A program made the translations under genes and the position numbers. The notes beneath the pieces were generated by a model that worked only from the letters and a program-made list of their open reading frames with translations, was not told where the DNA came from and searched no databases. Shown here one piece after another: positions 21,090 through 34,118 of a DNA stretch of 64,000 nt (position 1 is the stretch's first letter; each line of letters begins with the position of its first letter). The stretch is from positions 62,001 to 126,000 of the forward strand of contig MGMF01000001.1 of assembly GCA_001796335.1 (NCBI GenBank), given 5' to 3'. Source of the DNA: Chloroflexi bacterium GWB2_49_20. GTDB lineage: Bacteria; Chloroflexota; Anaerolineae; Anaerolineales; Villigracilaceae.

Positions 21090-21443
21090 ATAATTCCTCT
21101 CATCAAGCGATCTTTTATCACACCCGAATATTCCAGCTTAGATTATCATCAACAGATGGTATATTTAAGGCAAACATGGCATCTCAGCCTGCAGTTTACA
21201 TCTTCTTATAAGTCAACCTTTTTCAACCATTCAGCATGAACTTTCATCAATGCCAGCGAACAATGATGATGCATAAATAATAAACGTATTTTGCCTCAAA
21301 CCAAATTAATTTGCAAGATAATTAGGTGGATTTTCTAAAAGTTGACACATTAACAATCCTGAACAGGAATCTGATTTATCATTTGCAATTCCTGTCCGGG
21401 ATGGCTATAATTTATTAAGGAGTAATCCACTTAGGAGGTTAGC
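21090..21443. other. Divergent intergenic region (354 bases)
   Basis: AT-rich spacer between the DapA-like gene and the kinase operon. The right end contains the kinase promoter and an overlapping inverted repeat. The remainder shows nothing I can support. Confidence 0.6.
21383..21411 (+). promoter_or_regulatory. Promoter of the kinase-phosphatase operon
   Basis: TTGCAA (21383-21388), a 17-base spacer and TATAAT (21406-21411). An inverted repeat, ACAGGAAT (21363-21370) with ATTCCTGT (21388-21395), straddles the -35 box. The downstream ribosome binding site AGGAGG is at 21433-21438. Confidence 0.7.
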
Positions 21444-23327
21444 CTGGAAACACAAATCATCTTGCCTGACAATTTTGAAGAAACCGGCAAGGATCGTAAG
21501 AATCAACTCCAAAACGGCACTACCCTTGTCCAACGCTATGTAATTCAGGATGTGATTGGTGTGGGAGGCATGGGTTCAGTTTACCGGGCACGCGACCTGC
21601 ACTTCCCTAATGTTGTCAAACTGGTAGCTGTTAAGGAGATGATCAACCGCGCTCCGGATCCACTTGTGCGTGCCACCATAGTAAAAAACTTCGAGCGGGA
21701 AGCAAATATCCTTGCCACTCTCAATCACCCCTCAATTCCACGCATATATGATTATTTTACTGAGGATAACCGTTCTTATCTGGTCTTGGAATTCATTCAC
21801 GGGAAAGACTTGGAAACCATCATTTCCCAAAATGATGGTTTCCTATCTGAAGAACAGGCTGTCACCTGGGGTATTGAATTATGTGATGTTTTGAGCTTTC
21901 TGCACAACCATAAACCCGAACCAATTATTTTTCGGGATATGAAACCATCCAACGTAATTATCAACCAGGAAAATCATATCATACTTGTGGATTTTGGAAT
22001 TGCCAAACCATTCCAATCCGGTCAAAAAGGCACCATGATTGGCACAGAAGGTTATTCGCCTCCAGAACAATATCGAGGTGAAGCCAACCATTCTGCAGAC
22101 ATATATGCATTGGGTGCTACTTTACATCATTTATTAACTCGTCGTGACCCACGCTTGGAGCCTCCTTTTTCATATAACGAGCGACCCATCAGGAAGATAA
22201 ACCCTGCTGTGTCTTTGGAACTCGAAGCAGTCATCAATGTGGCACTGCAATATAATCCACCGGATCGTTTTGAAACTATTGCAACCATGAAAGAAGCTCT
22301 CATGGCTGCTGCCCGAAAAACCGGCTTATTAGGCCGTATCAATCAATCCACTGGCAACATCCAAACCAGCTCTTTGAAACCTCTCTGGACCTTTCAATGT
22401 GAAGACGAGATCAGGAGTTCACCATTGTATTATGAAGGGGGGATATATGTAGGATCTTGCGACAATAATATTTATTCTTTAAAAGCAGCCGACGGAGAAT
22501 TTGCCTGGAAATATGCAACTGACGGAAGTATAGTTACACGCCCGGCTGTTTACGATGGAAATATTTTTATCGGTTCTGAAGACCATCGTTTACATGTTAT
22601 TAATGCACGTTCAGGAAAAATAAACTGGACATATTACAGTGAAGGGCGAATTCGTTCCTCCCCACGTATCTCAGAGGGGCATGTGTTTTTTGGATCTGAT
22701 GATAAAGCACTTCATGCAGTGAACGTACTAACCGGCAGAGCATCCTGGAAGTTCGATGCTGCTTCCCCAGTACGTTCCACGCCATATGTCCTTAACGAAA
22801 CCATTTATATTGGCTCTGAGAGTGGGGAATTTTATGCCATCGATTTCCGGGGCAATTTGAAATGGCGCTTCAAAGCCAAACTTGCCATAACATCCTCCCC
22901 AGTGGTTCAGGATGGCATGGTCTTTTTTGGGTCACTCGATGGCAGTTTTTATGCGCTGGAAGCCAGGGGGGGGTGGGTCATTTGGAGGTTCCGCATGGGT
23001 AAAGGTTCAATTGTTTCCCCATGCTTTGCAGACAATCTCATCTTCACCGGTGCTGCGGATGGCTTGATCTATGCAATAGAAGCGCGTACATCCAAAGAGA
23101 TCTGGCATTTCCAGGCTGATCATCAAATCAGCGGCTCTCCGGTTATTTTCAAAGATTCCATTTATTGCGGTGCTGCGGATGGGCAATTGTACTGTCTTGA
23201 ATATCGTACCGGCAGATTACGCTGGAAATTTGAGACACAAGGTCCAATCACAAGTGCTCCAGTCATATTCGATGATATTGTTTATGTCGGATCCTCTGAC
23301 CACATCATCTACGCACTCTTGGCATAA
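21444..23327 (+). CDS. Ser/Thr protein kinase with PQQ-type beta-propeller
   Basis: A kinase domain spans about residues 25-285, numbering from TTG 21462: glycine loop GVGGMGSVY, Lys58 in VAVKE, FRDMKPSN (157-164, Phe for the His of HRD), DFG (177-179) and GTEGYSPPEQ. A PQQ/pyrrolo-quinoline-type propeller fills the rest, with repeats such as SPLYYEGGIYVGSCDNNIYS. No membrane helix is seen, so it is cytoplasmic. The start is not ATG: CTG at 21444 lies 5 bases after AGGAGG, while TTG at 21462 is 23 bases away; the first in-frame ATG is inside the kinase. First gene of an operon with PP2C, J-VWA and FHA genes. Confidence 0.9.
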   Translation: METQIILPDNFEETGKDRKNQLQNGTTLVQRYVIQDVIGVGGMGSVYRARDLHFPNVVKLVAVKEMINRAPDPLVRATIVKNFEREANILATLNHPSIPRIYDYFTEDNRSYLVLEFIHGKDLETIISQNDGFLSEEQAVTWGIELCDVLSFLHNHKPEPIIFRDMKPSNVIINQENHIILVDFGIAKPFQSGQKGTMIGTEGYSPPEQYRGEANHSADIYALGATLHHLLTRRDPRLEPPFSYNERPIRKINPAVSLELEAVINVALQYNPPDRFETIATMKEALMAAARKTGLLGRINQSTGNIQTSSLKPLWTFQCEDEIRSSPLYYEGGIYVGSCDNNIYSLKAADGEFAWKYATDGSIVTRPAVYDGNIFIGSEDHRLHVINARSGKINWTYYSEGRIRSSPRISEGHVFFGSDDKALHAVNVLTGRASWKFDAASPVRSTPYVLNETIYIGSESGEFYAIDFRGNLKWRFKAKLAITSSPVVQDGMVFFGSLDGSFYALEARGGWVIWRFRMGKGSIVSPCFADNLIFTGAADGLIYAIEARTSKEIWHFQADHQISGSPVIFKDSIYCGAADGQLYCLEYRTGRLRWKFETQGPITSAPVIFDDIVYVGSSDHIIYALLA

Positions 23328-23350
23328 ACAGGCTAAAGAAGGAGAGATCA

Positions 23351-24256
23351 GTGAAATCGTTTTTTAAGAACCTTGGCCGTCAGAAGAAAATCCCAACTGA
23401 GATTGGATTGGATCAGAACATAACTACAACCCCACTTTCAGGCTTGCAAATTCAGGCTGAAATCTCAAAGTATATCCATTATGAGCCATCCCAATTGGTC
23501 GTCGGATGTGGTCAATCTGTCGGAAAACAGCGAGACCACAATGAAGATAGTTTATTCACTTTTACAATTACCCTGGGGAATGGCATAAACAGCCAACCTT
23601 TTGGTTTATATATTATTGCAGACGGAATGGGAGGTCACCAATATGGAGAAGTCGCCAGCAACGTGGCAATTCGCACAGTTGCAAGTTACCTTATACGAAA
23701 ATTCCATCCAATAATTGCAGATGCATCCGTCACTCTGGACGAACCTCTTCAAGAAATTATGCAAAATGCGGTTAAAGAAGCCCAACATGCTGTCATGAAA
23801 GCCGCACCGGGTAGTGGAACTACACTTACGGCTGTCCTGATATTAGGTCAGCAAATGACAATTGCCCATATTGGTGACAGTCGGGCATACTCGGTTCAAC
23901 CGGATGGGCGTGTTTCAATCCTAACCCGTGATCATTCATTAGTTCGCAGGCTTGAAGAACTGGGCCAAATTACCTCTGATGAAGCTGCCATACATCCTCA
24001 AAGGAACGTCTTGTACCGTGCCTTGGGACAGGGTGAATTTCTCGAGGCGGATATTTTCACAGCACCTGTTCCACAACCGGGATATCTATTCCTTTGCAGC
24101 GATGGACTTTGGGGTGTTGTTTCAGATGCTGAAATCTTCCGCCATATTTCAGAAGCCAAAAACATACAATCCGCCTGTCAAAACCTTGTAGCGGCAGCCA
24201 ATGCAGCTGGAGGACCGGACAATATCAGTGTGGTTCTTGTACAATTGTTGAGTTAA
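23351..24256 (+). CDS. PP2C-type Ser/Thr protein phosphatase
   Basis: A 301-residue metal-dependent phosphatase. After a 45-residue N-terminal segment, all PP2C motifs appear in order: QRDHNEDS, IIADGMGGHQYGE, GSGTTLTAVLI, IAHIGDSRAY, LTRDHSLV, LCSDGLWGVV and GGPDNISVVLV. The Asp residues bind two Mn2+ or Mg2+ ions. It should reverse phosphorylation by the kinase encoded 23 bases upstream. The start is GTG with AAGGAG in front. Its stop is one base before the GTG of the next gene. Confidence 0.95.
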   Translation: MKSFFKNLGRQKKIPTEIGLDQNITTTPLSGLQIQAEISKYIHYEPSQLVVGCGQSVGKQRDHNEDSLFTFTITLGNGINSQPFGLYIIADGMGGHQYGEVASNVAIRTVASYLIRKFHPIIADASVTLDEPLQEIMQNAVKEAQHAVMKAAPGSGTTLTAVLILGQQMTIAHIGDSRAYSVQPDGRVSILTRDHSLVRRLEELGQITSDEAAIHPQRNVLYRALGQGEFLEADIFTAPVPQPGYLFLCSDGLWGVVSDAEIFRHISEAKNIQSACQNLVAAANAAGGPDNISVVLVQLLS

Positions 24257-24257
24257 A

Positions 24258-25736
24258 GTGGAATCATCCAATTACTATACGATTCTGGGTGTCCCGAGAG
24301 ATGCTACACCTGAGGAAATCAGAAAAGCATATTTCAGCGCGGCCCGGCGACTGCACCCAGACAAGAATATTGCACCCGGAGACACTGAATATTTCATCAG
24401 CGCCAATGAAGCCTATCAAGTGCTTTCGGATCCAATAAAACGCTCCAACTATAATGCCGGCTTACCTCCCGAAAAAATTATCAACCTGCCTGTTTCCCAA
24501 AAGATTACTTTCAGCCGCGAAAATCTTATTCAAGTGCAAGACCCTCAGCTGGTTTATGCCCTGCTGGAATATTCTCCTTCCATAAAAAACCTGGAAAGCA
24601 TCCCCTCGCCACCATTAAATCTTTGCCTTCTGATAGATCGCTCCACATCCATGAAAGGTGGGAATCTGGACATAGTCAAGGCGACTGCCATCCAGATATT
24701 GAGGCGGTTACGTCCACAGGATATTTTATCCCTGGTTGCTTTCAGCGATAGAGCTGAAACCCTTATACCTTCCACCCGGGACGGCGACCTTCTTAAAATC
24801 GAAGCACGTATTCAAATGCTGCAAACATCCGGGGCAACTGAAATATATAATGGGCTGGTTGCTGCGTTTACAGAAGTTAAAAGGGCATACAATCCAGCTT
24901 ACATTAACCACATCATTATGCTCACCGATGGACACACGTTCGGGGATGAAAATAGCTGTCTGGAATTAGCAGATGAAGCCATTAAACAAGGAATTGGCAT
25001 CAGTGGGTTGGGTATCGGGCATGAATGGAATGATGCTTTATTGGATGAAATTGCACTCCGAACCGGCGGCAGCAGCATTTATGTTTCACACCCCCAGGAT
25101 ATCCAACGTCTCTTGATGGAGAAGTTCAATAATTTGTGGCAAATTTACGCAGAAGATGTCACGATTGAATTCGGAGTATCTGAAAATGTTCAGCTTTGCT
25201 ATGCTTTTCGGTTGCAGCCTGAACTTGGGTTACTGCCAATAGAAAGCCCAATACATCTGGGTCCAATATTACGCACCGGAAATATGACCATTCTCATGGA
25301 ATTTATGGTTTCCGGCACAGAAAATGCAAACGTGATAGAATTGTTTGAAGGACAAGTCATAGTCAGCACTGCAACCCATAACACACCTATTTCAAGTTTT
25401 AACATCCGATTGGTTCGTCCTGTTAGCATGACAGCAAGTACACCTGAGCCACCTCCTTTAGCGATCATTCAGGCGTTGTCACGGCTGAGGCTATATCGGT
25501 TACAAGAGCAAGCCCGCCTGGAGGTGGATGCGGGGGCATACGATCAAGCTTCCCAGCATTTACAAAGGTTGGCTACCCATTTACTCCAACAAGGAAACCG
25601 GGGATTGGCTCGCACGGTGTTACTGGAAGCAGAAAACATAAAAGAAAAACAAACTTACTCTCTTGAGGGCAATAAACGCATCAAATATGGCACCCGGGCT
25701 TTGCTTCTGCCCGGATCAGGAGAAAATAAAACATGA
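24258..25736 (+). CDS. J-domain/VWA-domain fusion protein
   Basis: A 492-residue protein starting at GTG. Residues 4-68 form a DnaJ domain with the HPD tripeptide (33-35), so it can call on an Hsp70. Residues 120-300 form a von Willebrand A domain with an intact metal site: D127-x-S129-x-S131 in DRSTS, T194 in GATE, and D224 in LTDG. A beta-rich region follows to about 395, then a helical end with LYRLQEQARLEVDAGAYDQA. Closest known context is the TerY-P type module of VWA, PP2C, kinase and zinc ribbon. The J-domain fusion is unusual. Its stop overlaps the next ATG. Confidence 0.88.
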   Translation: MESSNYYTILGVPRDATPEEIRKAYFSAARRLHPDKNIAPGDTEYFISANEAYQVLSDPIKRSNYNAGLPPEKIINLPVSQKITFSRENLIQVQDPQLVYALLEYSPSIKNLESIPSPPLNLCLLIDRSTSMKGGNLDIVKATAIQILRRLRPQDILSLVAFSDRAETLIPSTRDGDLLKIEARIQMLQTSGATEIYNGLVAAFTEVKRAYNPAYINHIIMLTDGHTFGDENSCLELADEAIKQGIGISGLGIGHEWNDALLDEIALRTGGSSIYVSHPQDIQRLLMEKFNNLWQIYAEDVTIEFGVSENVQLCYAFRLQPELGLLPIESPIHLGPILRTGNMTILMEFMVSGTENANVIELFEGQVIVSTATHNTPISSFNIRLVRPVSMTASTPEPPPLAIIQALSRLRLYRLQEQARLEVDAGAYDQASQHLQRLATHLLQQGNRGLARTVLLEAENIKEKQTYSLEGNKRIKYGTRALLLPGSGENKT

Positions 25737-26254
25737 TTTTTTGCCCAAATTGTCAACACAAGGAAGATCCAGGTGCAGTCTTTTGTAGTAATTGTGGTAC
25801 CCAATTGGTTGTACCTAATTCCGGCAAGACCCATGAAATTCATACTTCCGAGACAAAAATTAAAGCGATACAACATGCACCCTTCCTCCCGACACCAAAG
25901 GTGCCTTTAAGTTCATGGGTCTCTCTCCATCTGATCGAGAGTGGGCAGATCATATCTCTTGCAGATCGGAATGAGTTTACACTCGGCCGAGCCAGTGAGG
26001 GCCAACCCATCATGCCAGATGTGGATCTAACAGCTTTTAATGCCCATGCCAATGGCGTTTCACGCTTGCATTGTGTCATAAAAAAAGTGAATTCCAAAAC
26101 CTTTATCATGGACCTGGGCTCTTCGAATGGCACTTATCATATTGGAGTCCGTTTATCCCCATATGCTGAAACTCCAATAAACCATGGAGATGTCATCACA
26201 CTGGGAAAATTAAAGATCCAGGTATTGATCGATCAGGATCAGGGTAAATTGTGA
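25733..26254 (+). CDS. Zinc-ribbon FHA-domain protein
   Basis: A 173-residue protein. An N-terminal zinc ribbon uses C4, C7, C18 and C21 (CPNC and CSNC). After a linker, an FHA domain spans about residues 60-170, with G85-R86, the S110-R-x-H113 phosphothreonine pocket and GSSNGT at 129-134. It should bind phosphothreonine on targets of the kinase in the same operon. The ATG overlaps the stop of the J-VWA gene by 4 bases (ATGA), giving tight translational coupling. Confidence 0.92.
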   Translation: MIFCPNCQHKEDPGAVFCSNCGTQLVVPNSGKTHEIHTSETKIKAIQHAPFLPTPKVPLSSWVSLHLIESGQIISLADRNEFTLGRASEGQPIMPDVDLTAFNAHANGVSRLHCVIKKVNSKTFIMDLGSSNGTYHIGVRLSPYAETPINHGDVITLGKLKIQVLIDQDQGKL

Positions 26255-26332: not shown

Positions 26333-26575
26333 ATGACCCATACCCTTTTGATCCATTTACAAAATGAAGATCCGATAGTTGGAGAGGTGGAAGAACTGCC
26401 CAGCACCACCGACCAACTTATTACTGTCAACAATCCACGACGCCGGGATGGTAAAGATGTGCATTACCTGGAAAGTAATGTGATGGCGATCATCCTGCCC
26501 ATTCTTCGTATCACATTCATCGAACTTATAAAAAACGAAATGGATGAAGAAATCGTCAGCTTTGTTAAGGATTAA
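26333..26575 (+). CDS. Hypothetical 80-residue protein
   Basis: A small, acidic cytoplasmic protein without membrane segments. It has a beta-rich centre (HTLLIHLQNEDPIVGEVEEL, then DQLITVNNPRRRDGKDVHYL). I recognise no family. It lies between the FHA gene and a response-regulator gene, 3 bases before the latter, so it is probably co-expressed with it. The PRRRDGK patch and beta pattern might suit nucleic acid or partner binding, but this is speculation. Confidence 0.6.
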   Translation: MTHTLLIHLQNEDPIVGEVEELPSTTDQLITVNNPRRRDGKDVHYLESNVMAIILPILRITFIELIKNEMDEEIVSFVKD

Positions 26576-26578
26576 ATT

Positions 26579-27304
26579 ATGAGTGACGAAGCACAAAAAC
26601 GACGCAAAATATTGATAGTGGATGATGAAGAACGGATGGTTCGCTTTATCCGTCTCAACCTGGAACATGATGGATTTGTGGTGGTTGAAGCCTTCAATGG
26701 TAAACAAGCCCTGCAAAGATTACGCGATTCGGTTCCGGATATCATTTTATTGGACGTAATGATGCCAGATCTGGATGGCTTTGAGGTTTTGCAAATGATC
26801 CGTGAGATCAATAATATCCCGGTCATTATGTTGACAGCCAAGGGTGAAGAAAACGACAGAGTACGTGGTCTCGAATTGGGCGCGGATGATTACATCACCA
26901 AACCCTTCAGCCCGCGTGAACTTGTCAGCCGGGTTAAAGCAGTACTACGCCGCACTGAAGGTGCCACCGGCAGCATGCACGGATTAATCGAAGTGGATGA
27001 ACGTTTAAAATTCGATTTTGACCGGCATGAGGTCTGGTTGGAAGGCAAAATCATTAAACTCCGCCCAACCGAATATCGCCTCTTGTTTCACCTGGTTCAA
27101 AATGCCGGATGGGTTATTTCACACGATCAACTTTTAGCCAAAGTCTGGGGTTATGAATATCGGGACGAGCCGCATTATGTACGCTTATACATCAACTACC
27201 TGCGCCAGAAGTTGGAAAAAGACCCTGCCAATCCCCAATACATCCTTACCGAACGTGGCGTAGGCTACCGTTTTGTGGATTTCAGACGCGAACACGTAGA
27301 ATAA
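26579..27304 (+). CDS. OmpR/PhoB-family response regulator
   Basis: A 241-residue two-component regulator. The receiver domain (residues 9-125) has acidic residues D15-D16, the phospho-acceptor D59 in LLDVMMPD, and Lys in ITKPFSP. The winged-helix effector domain includes [21 protein letters not shown] and [17 protein letters not shown], ending with GVGYRF. It should bind DNA as a dimer when phosphorylated. No histidine kinase lies in this window near it, so its partner is elsewhere or input comes another way. A terminator follows at 27320-27351. Confidence 0.95.
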
Positions 27305-27384: not shown

Positions 27385-28044
27385 ATGACAAAACATAGAA
27401 TTATATTGGTGGATGACCACGAAGTAGTTCGGCTGGGACTTAAAGCCCTACTTGAACGCCATCCTCATTTTGAAGTGGTTGGTGAGGCTTCCTCATCGCG
27501 GGAAGCCATTGAATTGGTCTCCAACATCCAACCCGATGTTGTAGTAATGGACGTCAGGCTGCCGGGTACCTCTGGAATCGAAGCCTGCGAGGAGATCACC
27601 AGGAGGTTTCCAACCACAAAGGTCATCATGTTGACATCCTACGCTGAAGATGAAATGTTATTTTCGGCGATACGTGCCGGTGCGTCGGGCTACATTCTGA
27701 AGCAGATTGGTGGCGAAGACTTGATTCATGCACTCGAAGCGGTCAGCCGTGGCGAAGCCTTGCTGGATCCGGCTGTCACTCAAAGAGTCTTCCAGGAAGT
27801 TCGGCGCGCAGTCAAAGAAGAGGAAGCTTCAGCTTTCGCCCATCTGAGCCAACAGGAAAAACATGTCTTGTTGCTGGTCTCTGAAGGAAAAACCAATCGC
27901 GAGATTGCCAAGGCCCTTTTTCTGGGCGAAGGTACAGTTCGCAACTATGTCAGCAGTATTCTCTCAAAACTAGGGGTCAGCAATCGTGCTGAGGCTGCTG
28001 CATATGCAGTTGAACACAGTCTGCGCGAATATATCTCTGTATAA
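27385..28044 (+). CDS. NarL/LuxR-family response regulator
   Basis: A 219-residue regulator. The receiver domain (residues 4-120) has D10-D11, phospho-acceptor D56 in VMDVRLPG, and Lys in YILKQIGG. The C-terminal HTH of LuxR type includes [22 protein letters not shown] and [19 protein letters not shown], similar to DevR/LiaR regulators. It is the second regulator in a row without an adjacent histidine kinase. A GGAGG-like site (ATGGAGGCC) lies upstream of the ATG. purB follows after 8 bases. Confidence 0.94.
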
Positions 28045-31551: not shown

Positions 31552-32841
31552 ATGGCAGGTGCCATCATCAAAACCAAACTTAATAATGGGTTGTCAGTCC
31601 TTCTCAAAGAGATCCATACCGCCCCACTGATCAGTTCCTGGATCTGGTACAGAGTGGGTTCCAAAGATGAACCCACCGGCCTGACCGGCATTTCCCACTG
31701 GGTGGAACATATGCAGTTCAAGGGAACACCTACCTACCCATCTGTCATCCTGGATAAATCCATCTCCCGGGAAGGAGGCATGTGGAATGCCTTCACCTAC
31801 CTGGATTGGACCACTTTCCTCGAGACTCTACCTGCTGACAAGATTGACCTGGCACTTTCCCTTGAAGCCGATCGCATGGTAAATAGTCTTTACGAACCGG
31901 GGGAAGTAGCTTCTGAAAGAACTGTCATCATCTCCGAACGTGAAGGGAGTGAGAATGAACCTCTCTTTAAGCTCAACGAAGCCATTCAATCAACTGCCTT
32001 TACTGTTCATCCATATCACCACGAGGTTATCGGTGACATGGCAGATCTTCATTCAATAACTCGTGATAACCTGTACGAGCACTACCACAGTTATTACACC
32101 CCCAACAATGCTGTTCTGGCTCTGGCTGGAGATTTCAACAGCAAAGCCATGCTGGAACGCATACGCACGCTTTACGAATCAATCCCGGCCGGGGAGGCTC
32201 CAGCCCGACTGAACCGGCCTGAACCTCCAGTACGTGGTGAACATCGCTTGAGCATTGAAGGCCCTGGAGAAACGACCTACCTTCAAATCGCATACCGGTT
32301 CCCGGCTGCCGCCGATCCAGACCTGTTTCCTTTCATGGTACTGGATAGCCTGTTGAGTGGCCCCAGCAACCCCAGCGCCTTCAGCGGAGGCGGTATTTCC
32401 AACAAAACTTCCCGTCTGTACCGCGCACTGGTAGATAAAGATCTGGCAGTAGGGGTCTCTGGAAGTGGTCAGGTGACAATTGATCCATTCCTTTATGCGA
32501 CCACCATTACTGTCCACCCGAAAAGCAATCCCGACGATTCTCTGCTCGCATTCGATGCTGAAATAAAACGCCTCCAGGATGAATTCATTCCAGAGTCTGA
32601 TATCCTGCGCGCCATAAAACAAGCCCGTGCCATATTTGCGTATGGCACAGAGAATATCACATACCAGGCAGCCTGGCTGGGCTTTTCTGAGATGTTTGCA
32701 GATTATAAGTGGTTTGAGAGTTATCTTGAAAAATTGGCGGAAGTAACACCAGGCGATATCCAACGAGTGGCCCAAACCTGGCTGCTTCCACAAAAAAGAT
32801 TGGTAGGTACCTACTTGCCAGATGGAAAGGTTTCAGAGTGA
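31552..32841 (+). CDS. M16 zinc peptidase, catalytic subunit
   Basis: A 429-residue pitrilysin-family peptidase. The inverted zinc motif HxxEH is H49-W-V-E52-H53, and the distal zinc ligand is a Glu in ERTVIISERE (about residue 129). Two M16 half-domains are present. The C-terminal half has the family's FPFMVLDSLLSG region. M16 enzymes often work as heterodimers with an inactive partner, as in mitochondrial processing peptidase; the next gene supplies one. No signal peptide is seen. The GTG of the next gene overlaps this stop by 4 bases. Confidence 0.93.
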   Translation: MAGAIIKTKLNNGLSVLLKEIHTAPLISSWIWYRVGSKDEPTGLTGISHWVEHMQFKGTPTYPSVILDKSISREGGMWNAFTYLDWTTFLETLPADKIDLALSLEADRMVNSLYEPGEVASERTVIISEREGSENEPLFKLNEAIQSTAFTVHPYHHEVIGDMADLHSITRDNLYEHYHSYYTPNNAVLALAGDFNSKAMLERIRTLYESIPAGEAPARLNRPEPPVRGEHRLSIEGPGETTYLQIAYRFPAAADPDLFPFMVLDSLLSGPSNPSAFSGGGISNKTSRLYRALVDKDLAVGVSGSGQVTIDPFLYATTITVHPKSNPDDSLLAFDAEIKRLQDEFIPESDILRAIKQARAIFAYGTENITYQAAWLGFSEMFADYKWFESYLEKLAEVTPGDIQRVAQTWLLPQKRLVGTYLPDGKVSE

Positions 32842-34118
32842 TCATGAAAACAAAACACCAACATTCCCTGCCAGGACCCGCTGATATTCACCGCTTCCAG
32901 ACATTAAACGGGATCACGATCCTGAGCCGCTCCAACTTCAACAGCCCATCTGTCGTCATTTCAGGTTACCTGCCCGCCGGTAGTTTGTTCGATTCGGATG
33001 GGCAGCTTGGTTTGGCGGATTTTACAGCCATGACACTCACGCGTGGCAGCCTGACGCGTGATTTTCAGGGCATCCATAATGCCCTGGAATCCTGTGGCGC
33101 CAATCTTGGCATGAGTGCCGGCACTCACACGGCCAGTTTTAGTGGACGCTGCCTGGCAGAAGATTTACCCCTGTTGCTCGATTTATTATCCGAGAGTCTG
33201 CGACAGCCATCATTCGATTCCGCACAGGTGGAAAAATTGCGCGCCCAGTTATTGACAGGCCTATCCATACGCGCCCAGGATACCGGTGAGATGGCTTCGC
33301 TTTCTTTCGACCAGATCCTCTTCGCAGGCCACCCGTACAGCCGCCCGGAAGATGGTTATCCGGCTACCATCAAGTCCATCACTCGGCAGGATTTAAAGGA
33401 TTTTCACCAACTCCATTACGGGCCAACCGGCTTGGTGATCTCAATCGTTGGTGCGATCAAGCCGGAGGATGCGGTCGCACAGGTACAACGCGTCCTGGCT
33501 GATTGGGAGAATCCTTTCCAACCCGAATTACCTTTATTACCAGTTTTTACTCCCCTCAAAAAAAGAAAAACTCAACGCGTGCACATCCCCGGCAAGTCTC
33601 AGAGCGACCTTGTCATGGGCTCAAGCGGTCCTAAACGTCTCGACCCCGAATTCTTGCCAGCTTCATTGGGAAATTCGGTGCTTGGACAATTTGGCATGAT
33701 GGGACGAATTGGCGATGTGGTGCGTGAAAAATCCGGGTTGGCTTACTACGCGTACAGCTCATTGAATGCAGGCATTGGTCCGGGATCATGGGAAGTAAGC
33801 GCTGGGGTTAATCCCACCAATGTACGCAAAGCCATCGATTTGATCAAGGGAGAGATTACCAGTTTTGTAACCAATGGAGTATCCCCCGATGAGCTCGCAG
33901 ACAGCCAGGCAAATTTTATCGGGCGTCTGCCTCTCTCACTCGAATCCAACGCAGGTGTTGCCGGAGCTCTCTTGAATATTGAGCGCTACGACCTCGGGCT
34001 GGACTATTACCTGCATTATCCAGACCTGGTTCGTGGGGTCACCCCCTTGGATGTCCTGGCCGCGGCGAGAAAATACCTGGATCCAGAAAAGCTGGCAATC
34101 GCCATCGCTGGACCGTAA
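32838..34118 (+). CDS. M16 peptidase-like protein, non-catalytic partner
   Basis: A 426-residue M16-fold protein. At the place of HxxEH it reads GLADFTAMTL, so zinc binding and catalysis are lost. GNSVLGQFGMMGRIGDVVREKSGLAY is the conserved R/Y-type region that binds substrate in active/inactive pairs. The GTG start at 32838 overlaps the catalytic subunit's stop and has GG 7 bases upstream; ATG 32844 is a second choice. The two proteins should form a heterodimer that degrades or processes peptides. acpS follows. Confidence 0.92.
   Translation: MIMKTKHQHSLPGPADIHRFQTLNGITILSRSNFNSPSVVISGYLPAGSLFDSDGQLGLADFTAMTLTRGSLTRDFQGIHNALESCGANLGMSAGTHTASFSGRCLAEDLPLLLDLLSESLRQPSFDSAQVEKLRAQLLTGLSIRAQDTGEMASLSFDQILFAGHPYSRPEDGYPATIKSITRQDLKDFHQLHYGPTGLVISIVGAIKPEDAVAQVQRVLADWENPFQPELPLLPVFTPLKKRKTQRVHIPGKSQSDLVMGSSGPKRLDPEFLPASLGNSVLGQFGMMGRIGDVVREKSGLAYYAYSSLNAGIGPGSWEVSAGVNPTNVRKAIDLIKGEITSFVTNGVSPDELADSQANFIGRLPLSLESNAGVAGALLNIERYDLGLDYYLHYPDLVRGVTPLDVLAAARKYLDPEKLAIAIAGP

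Follow-up and report, generated by a model that had tools for sequence, protein, structure and literature searches.

A widely conserved operon of the Chloroflexota resembles the archaeal ArnA/ArnB phospho-switch

What might a bacterium do with a protein kinase, a protein phosphatase, a J-domain fused to a VWA domain and a phosphothreonine reader encoded in a single run of genes? Such a run lies on the forward strand of a 64,000-nucleotide stretch of the genome of Chloroflexi bacterium GWB2_49_20 (assembly GCA_001796335.1, contig MGMF01000001.1, positions 62,001 to 126,000), referred to here as the window, in whose numbering all coordinates are given. A first-pass annotation made from the sequence alone had likened these genes to TerY-P-type modules and had proposed that the J-domain brings Hsp70 to clients of the VWA protein. 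The closest worked-out system is one that this annotation did not name, the ArnA/ArnB pair of the Sulfolobus archaellum regulatory network, which includes the kinases ArnC and ArnD and the phosphatase PP2A. By analogy with that pair, and judging from sequence and structure models, the operon probably encodes a self-contained cytosolic phospho-switch, with a writer, an eraser, a target and a reader, plus a small fifth protein.

The first gene (21462..23327, +) encodes a protein of 621 amino acids from a TTG start, with a Ser/Thr kinase domain (Pfam Pkinase, E 5e-40) and a C-terminal PQQ/BamB-like propeller (PQQ_2/BamB type, 5e-44) in which eight repeats were counted by eye. It is followed by genes for a PP2C-type Ser/Thr phosphatase of 301 amino acids (23351..24256, +; PP2C_2, 3.8e-14), a protein of 492 amino acids in which an N-terminal J-domain (24270..24455, +; DnaJ, 1.6e-21) precedes an ArnB-like core of VWA domain (9e-19), beta-sandwich and C-terminal helical bundle (24258..25736, +; hereafter J-VWA), and an ArnA-like protein of 173 amino acids with a zinc ribbon, a linker and an FHA domain (25733..26254, +; Zn_Ribbon_1, 3e-6; FHA, 5e-14). 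The Pfam matches agree with all four identities given in the first-pass annotation, and the positions and spacing that it reported (gaps of 23 and 1 bases, then a 4-base overlap) are borne out; its earlier kinase start fits an alternative in-frame CTG at 21444 (+), 5 bases behind an AGGAGG at 21433-21438. The top 19-residue hydropathy is 1.2 in the kinase protein, the top mean among all four proteins is 1.3, and the four are predicted to be cytosolic because no membrane-length hydrophobic stretch was found in any of them. The operon as first described is conserved but incomplete. It missed a fifth gene (26333..26575, +), which encodes an unnamed 80-residue protein predicted to form an Sm-like small beta-barrel, and an OmpR-type response regulator gene (26579..27304, +), which frequently comes next in members of the class Anaerolineae and is a candidate output rather than part of the core.

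Of the solved structures, ArnB ranks first or ties for first as a match to the VWA core, as does ArnA for the zinc-ribbon-FHA protein. A VWA-core profile built from 49 sequences had as its top match in the PDB the entry 8s05_A (E 1.8e-23, positions 39-381 of 409), treated as ArnB on the grounds of its size and VWA match, in an alignment that covers the VWA domain, the sandwich and the greater part of the helical bundle. The AF2 model of J-VWA has the three-domain architecture of ArnB, in which the VWA domain is inserted in a beta-sandwich that is followed by a helical bundle. Foldseek placed 8s05_A at rank 1 for this model, and residues 77-485 of the model aligned to residues 2-378 of ArnB (8s05_B; VIA Z 28.7, rmsd 5.4, 359 residues aligned); the VIA Z for ArnE (5a8j) was 23.5. 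The zinc-ribbon-FHA protein matched ArnA best (5a8i; E 1.6e-5 with the single sequence and 3e-10 with a profile, the next other protein being at 1.2e-8), with a weak alignment of the zinc ribbon as well. It also has the ArnA layout of an N-terminal four-Cys zinc finger, a linker and a C-terminal FHA domain with the phosphothreonine (pThr) residues.

According to passages of the published work on Sulfolobus, ArnA binds the C-terminal helical bundle of ArnB, which is the site of phosphorylation and from which the phosphopeptides RMELIET*T*RR, ISESIET*T*RR and IGTVEQT*R are given (PMC6509490). The zinc finger accounts for a loose unphosphorylated complex and the FHA domain for a tight phosphorylated one, and no phospho-site is essential singly (PMC12852372); dephosphorylation by PP2A breaks up the complexes (PMC7472852). 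The cassette shares with this system the ArnB-type VWA domain, beta-sandwich and helical bundle (the last holding the phospho-sites on the ArnB side, according to passages of PMC6509490 and PMC12852372), the ArnA-type N-terminal zinc ribbon, linker and C-terminal FHA domain, and a Ser/Thr kinase opposed by a phosphatase. It differs in being bacterial with all parts in one operon, in using a propeller-kinase where Sulfolobus has ArnC/ArnD and PP2C where it has PP2A, and in adding a J-domain and the unnamed Sm-like protein. Moreover, its VWA protein has one near-invariant T-R-x-L, whereas ArnB has a redundant threonine cluster.

The cassette is a real and widely conserved bacterial operon. Among 249 genomes sampled from the class, 130 have a relative of J-VWA at E <= 1e-20, and in 86 genomes among the matches listed (the window's included), the match begins at query residue 6 or earlier, i.e., within the J-domain. 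The window's genome (3.37 Mb, 28 contigs) has a single full J-VWA protein. Records of Levilinea, Anaerolinea and Anaerolineales are among the named relatives; we take these to belong to the class Anaerolineae of the phylum Chloroflexota. Sixty of the 86 genomes (with 25 left out), nine named loci and the window gave 70 loci with a J-domain (J-loci), or 69 distinct ones, since L035 and L045 are the same. Near J-VWA, the kinase-propeller is present at 68 of the 70, PP2C at 62, FHA at 67, the small protein at 69 and a response regulator at 53; all of the first four occur together at 59. Counted over distinct loci, the arrangement is kept at 58 of 69, so that the conserved gene order on which the first-pass reading depended does hold; cassettes also occur beyond the class. 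The FHA and PP2C counts come from stop-to-stop frames, at E limits of 0.1 and 0.01, respectively, and a cut of 1600 bases applied; the kinase of L090 is present, past this cut. In the frame search, FHA was not found at L084, L099 and L104, nor the small protein at L084. Stricter open reading frame labels show FHA at 64 of the 70, it being unseen beside J-VWA in L035/L045, L084, L092, L099 and L104. Several loci stop at contig ends. At L084, J-VWA lies near a kinase-FHA fusion, and a separate FHA gene, PP2C and the small protein were not found there.

Median gaps at the J-loci are 15 bases (61 pairs of neighboring genes), 9 bases (61 pairs) and -4 bases (64 pairs), and the repetition of this order and close spacing across the class indicates that the arrangement is not due to chance. 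Fourteen full cassettes were found outside the class, so the cassette spans the phylum. The FHA residues G/R/S/R/H/N and the four zinc cysteines are kept in 83 of 83 proteins, the kinase catalytic residues are conserved, and the MIDAS, kinase, PP2C, FHA and zinc residues are largely kept across the family.

A candidate site for the switch lies in the tail of the VWA protein, where the codons at 25683..25703 (+) encode K-Y-G-T-R-A-L, a putative phospho-threonine and FHA ligand with its threonine, Thr479, at 25692-25694. Across 110 rows of this K-Y-G-T-R-x-L motif, Thr is kept in 109, Arg in 108 and Leu in 106, and the intervening positions vary. The motif is common to J-bearing and J-less proteins and to the kinase-FHA cassettes L113, L114, L116 and L119; exceptions to Y-x-T-R are L118, L122, L123 and L173, among which L118 and L173 retain T-R-x-L. 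Of ten additional VWA proteins encoded in kinase or FHA cassettes, eight have the motif, whereas it is in the last 70 residues of none of the 11 class VWA proteins without labelled kinase, PP2C or FHA neighbors (L195-L205). Given the structural alignment to ArnB, Thr479 falls near the end of the ArnB bundle; the phosphorylated T371-T375 of ArnB are also near the bundle end (in passages of PMC12852372). We infer from these sequence comparisons that Thr479 may be phosphorylated and read by the FHA domain. The four kinase-FHA loci are also of interest as a sister cassette within the class, composed of kinase-FHA, zinc-ribbon-PP2C, VWA and zinc-ribbon-FHA genes, with a zinc-ribbon kinase coming next in three of the four, and without propeller, J-domain or small protein.

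The 80-residue product of the fifth gene belongs to a conserved family that has no name in the libraries searched. It is present at 78 of 90 class loci examined, as a rule directly behind the FHA gene, and a profile search of 400 genomes from the phylum found it in 129, always as a single copy. Among 39 of its loci that were read, 18 have the kinase-propeller, PP2C, VWA and zinc-ribbon-FHA genes (four of them with the J-domain), 3 are partial, 6 have FHA only, 5 have the kinase-propeller or a propeller only, and 7 have none of these, which indicates that the small protein can adjoin the FHA gene or the kinase alone. Searches of Pfam, NCBIfam and PHROGs gave no match, and a sequence search of the PDB gave no credible one (two rows, at E 3.5 and 4.2, were disregarded). 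The model built from 10 sequences (mean pLDDT 82) is a five-strand barrel, for which Foldseek lists Sm/LSm proteins at the top, though with a best E of only 5.3e-3; the best VIA Z is 8.1, near the level that the tool calls common. The protein is predicted to be Sm-like in fold and no more. No plasmid or viral relatives were found; none of the 57 viral stretches that fit a pattern was confirmed. Some loci have other contexts: weaker matches without a labelled kinase, PP2C, VWA or FHA neighbor (L161, L162, L181-L184 and L188), minimal pairs of kinase-propeller and small protein without labelled PP2C, VWA or FHA (L169, L170, L185 and L186), and zinc-ribbon-FHA plus small protein behind a recN-like gene (L167 and L168, with an additional NAD-kinase-like gene in L168; translations judged by eye).

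From the observed gene content, order and conservation, the conserved motifs, and the fold and sequence matches to ArnA/ArnB, we infer a scheme of phosphorylation, FHA binding, DnaK action and outputs. The propeller-kinase would serve as input and scaffold and would write on one or more threonines in the VWA protein's C-terminal bundle and tail, with Thr479 in Y-G-T-R-x-L as the likeliest target. The zinc-ribbon-FHA protein would hold the VWA protein loosely through its zinc ribbon and clamp it tightly through FHA-pThr binding, and PP2C would reset the mark. An intact J-domain may recruit DnaK to open or re-fold the complex, and could call either of two full-length Hsp70s, both encoded in the window's genome. 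Output may pass through the zinc-ribbon-FHA protein, the Sm-like protein and, in many class members, the downstream OmpR-type regulator; the roles of the last two are guesses from linkage. The first-pass proposal that the FHA domain reads the output of the kinase is sound as far as the residues go, since those of the kinase, PP2C, FHA, MIDAS and zinc sites are largely kept. The window PP2C is the sole PF13672 (PP2C_2) match in a genome with four kinases and seven FHA domains, PF13672 being the only phosphatase family searched, and thus may also serve other kinases. It scored narrowly below the cut-off for Stp1/IreP-type PP2C (NCBIfam NF033484; 219.7 vs 230 bits), and the metal-site aspartates are kept in the family. 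A bolder version, possible but doubtful, is that the ArnAB-type switch is an old and general bacterial device, carried by Chloroflexota in the form of a single operon, in which pThr479-FHA binding would close the complex, J-recruited DnaK would pry it open, and the Sm-like protein, perhaps RNA- or peptide-binding, would be a dedicated output.

Several observations weigh against the Arn-like switch. The lead of ArnB in the profile search is thin (4fx5 at 2.4e-23; ITIH4 at 3.7e-23, VWA part only), and the actinobacterial 4fx5 ties with it structurally (VIA Z 29.6). The helical domain ArnB_C (PF18677) was matched by 2 of the 49 VWA cores at E <= 1, the best being 0.2; because it is in effect unmatched, the cassette is said here to work like ArnAB and not to be ArnAB. 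The PP2C gene is absent at eight of the 70 J-loci (L064, L084, L095, L096, L097, L101, L102 and L103). Thr479 is within a predicted helix in the AF2 model, at fair confidence, so that access would need opening. Because the 11 motif-less VWA proteins are only distantly related, the contrast in the motif is partly explained by shared ancestry; the motif could instead be a structural or phosphate-independent contact. The threonines of ArnB are several and redundant, and pairwise alanine mutants bound ArnA after long phosphorylation (in passages of PMC12852372). Finally, J-VWA could serve clients in a way that has nothing to do with the switch.

In a chaperone-centered rival reading, the J-domain would be the working end of the module, with the VWA protein delivering clients to Hsp70 and the kinase, PP2C and FHA proteins regulating delivery. 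The HPD motif, which J-domain proteins require for stimulating Hsp70, is present in the window protein (codons 24354-24362) and is kept at 59 of the 70 J-loci, which are spread over many families, so that Hsp70 recruitment is plausible there; the two Hsp70 genes also fit. However, HPD is lost at 11 J-loci, eight of which share a single clade with some J-less members, and the J-domain is missing from 13 of the 14 full cassettes found outside the class (L157 being the one with it). Nine J-less loci in the class retain most of the operon along with the small protein, and the kinase-propeller can be seen at seven of them (including L109, which lacks PP2C). In a VWA-core tree of 108 rows (excluding the short L193 and L155 and the duplicate L045), built by a quick method with SH-aLRT only, the J-bearing rows group into a single cluster, supported at 82 (96 if L157 is removed), with J-less rows scattered within, which amounts to at least eight changes between the two states. 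The pattern looks like one gain followed by repeated decay, a reading that assumes that the J-less cassettes lie outside, as the tree alone cannot tell gain from loss. The J-domain as core was rejected because the domain is decayed or absent in many loci; it looks like an optional accessory of one large lineage, and a chaperone-centered module is unlikely. The recruitment of Hsp70 proposed in the first-pass annotation stays plausible where HPD is intact, but not as the core. The only plasmid matches of the J-VWA query were partial ones to the VWA domain, in two Picosynechococcus plasmids.

There are two further rivals to the Arn-like switch. The TerY-P triad groups VWA, PP2C and Ser/Thr kinase genes (as defined in passages of PMC11090510), and the cassette also has these three together; its kinase domain matches PADLOC PD-T4-6 models. 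The VWA and PP2C genes of the cassette adjoin, and 6 of the 49 cores match vWA-TerF-like at E <= 1. However, the zinc ribbon is on the separate FHA protein, and the kinase ends in a PQQ/BamB-like propeller instead of a zinc ribbon or OB-fold, on which ground membership of the TerY-P triad, the comparison drawn in the first-pass annotation, was rejected. A defence island is disfavored because the PD-T4-6 rows shown span the kinase domain, and because the small protein, phylum-wide and single-copy in positive genomes, has no plasmid or viral relative found; a TerY-P-like defence or metal-stress module is very improbable. It is also improbable that the operon is a stand-alone threonine-phosphorylation pathway in which the kinase acts mainly on the response regulator. 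Such a pathway would resemble PpkA, PppA and Fha of the type VI secretion system (T6SS), with which the cassette shares a kinase, a PP2C, an FHA substrate or reader and a VWA domain, and AfsK, an N-terminal kinase with C-terminal PQQ-type repeats that acts on the trans_reg-domain regulator AfsR (passages of PMC1262709); the OmpR-type regulator comes next at 53 of the 70 J-loci. Outside the class, however, none of the 14 full cassettes has a labelled response regulator directly behind the small gene. The kinase is far below the AfsK equivalog cut-off (NCBIfam NF053615; 214.5 vs 1300 bits) and is in a different operon. No secretion gene was found among the Pfam-scanned flanking genes of the window (neighbors in other genomes were not searched), and the FHA protein is not of the TagH/Fha type (NCBIfam VI_FHA, 33.9 bits vs the cut-off of 120.25). 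PpkA is transmembrane with an extracellular VWA domain (passages of PMC3224232), whereas the window kinase carries a propeller and lacks any hydrophobic stretch of membrane length, the VWA domain is in a separate protein, and all are predicted to be cytosolic. Another known set, associated with GAP1-N2, also links an active kinase, PP2C and a standalone vWA, and a DnaJ fusion with HSP70 appears as a separate theme (passages of eLife 52696). That set is GTPase-centered and actinobacterial, with the zinc ribbon fused to the kinase, and the passage concerned has no FHA partner.

Around the operon, a promoter-like TTGCAA-17-TATAAT lies upstream of the kinase gene (21383..21411, +), a consensus match only, in a region with 10 such sites in total vs 13.1 expected by chance. 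A second response regulator gene, of the LuxR type, follows the OmpR-type one at 27385-28044, and two adjoining M16 peptidase genes are located at 31552-34118. An Rfam scan of the window matched tRNA only.

No description of the cassette was found in the open-licence literature, in which earlier bacterial ArnAB-like pairs were not searched for; the authors of the ArnA/ArnB work note that the ArnB blueprint is widespread, mostly outside multi-phosphorylation (passages of PMC12852372). The cassette is real, conserved and of interest for reasons other than those first given, namely an Arn-like bacterial module, an unnamed small protein family and a testable site. Counterparts of ArnA/ArnB, the well-studied FHA-VWA switch by which some archaea control motility, are here encoded next to their likely kinase and phosphatase in a single bacterial operon that occurs in many families of one phylum, and the predicted phospho-site can be tested by one mutation. 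The small protein adds a conserved family, nameless in the libraries searched. The J-domain fusion may link a phospho-switch to Hsp70, and the natural knock-outs, in which HPD or the whole domain has been lost, allow for comparison.

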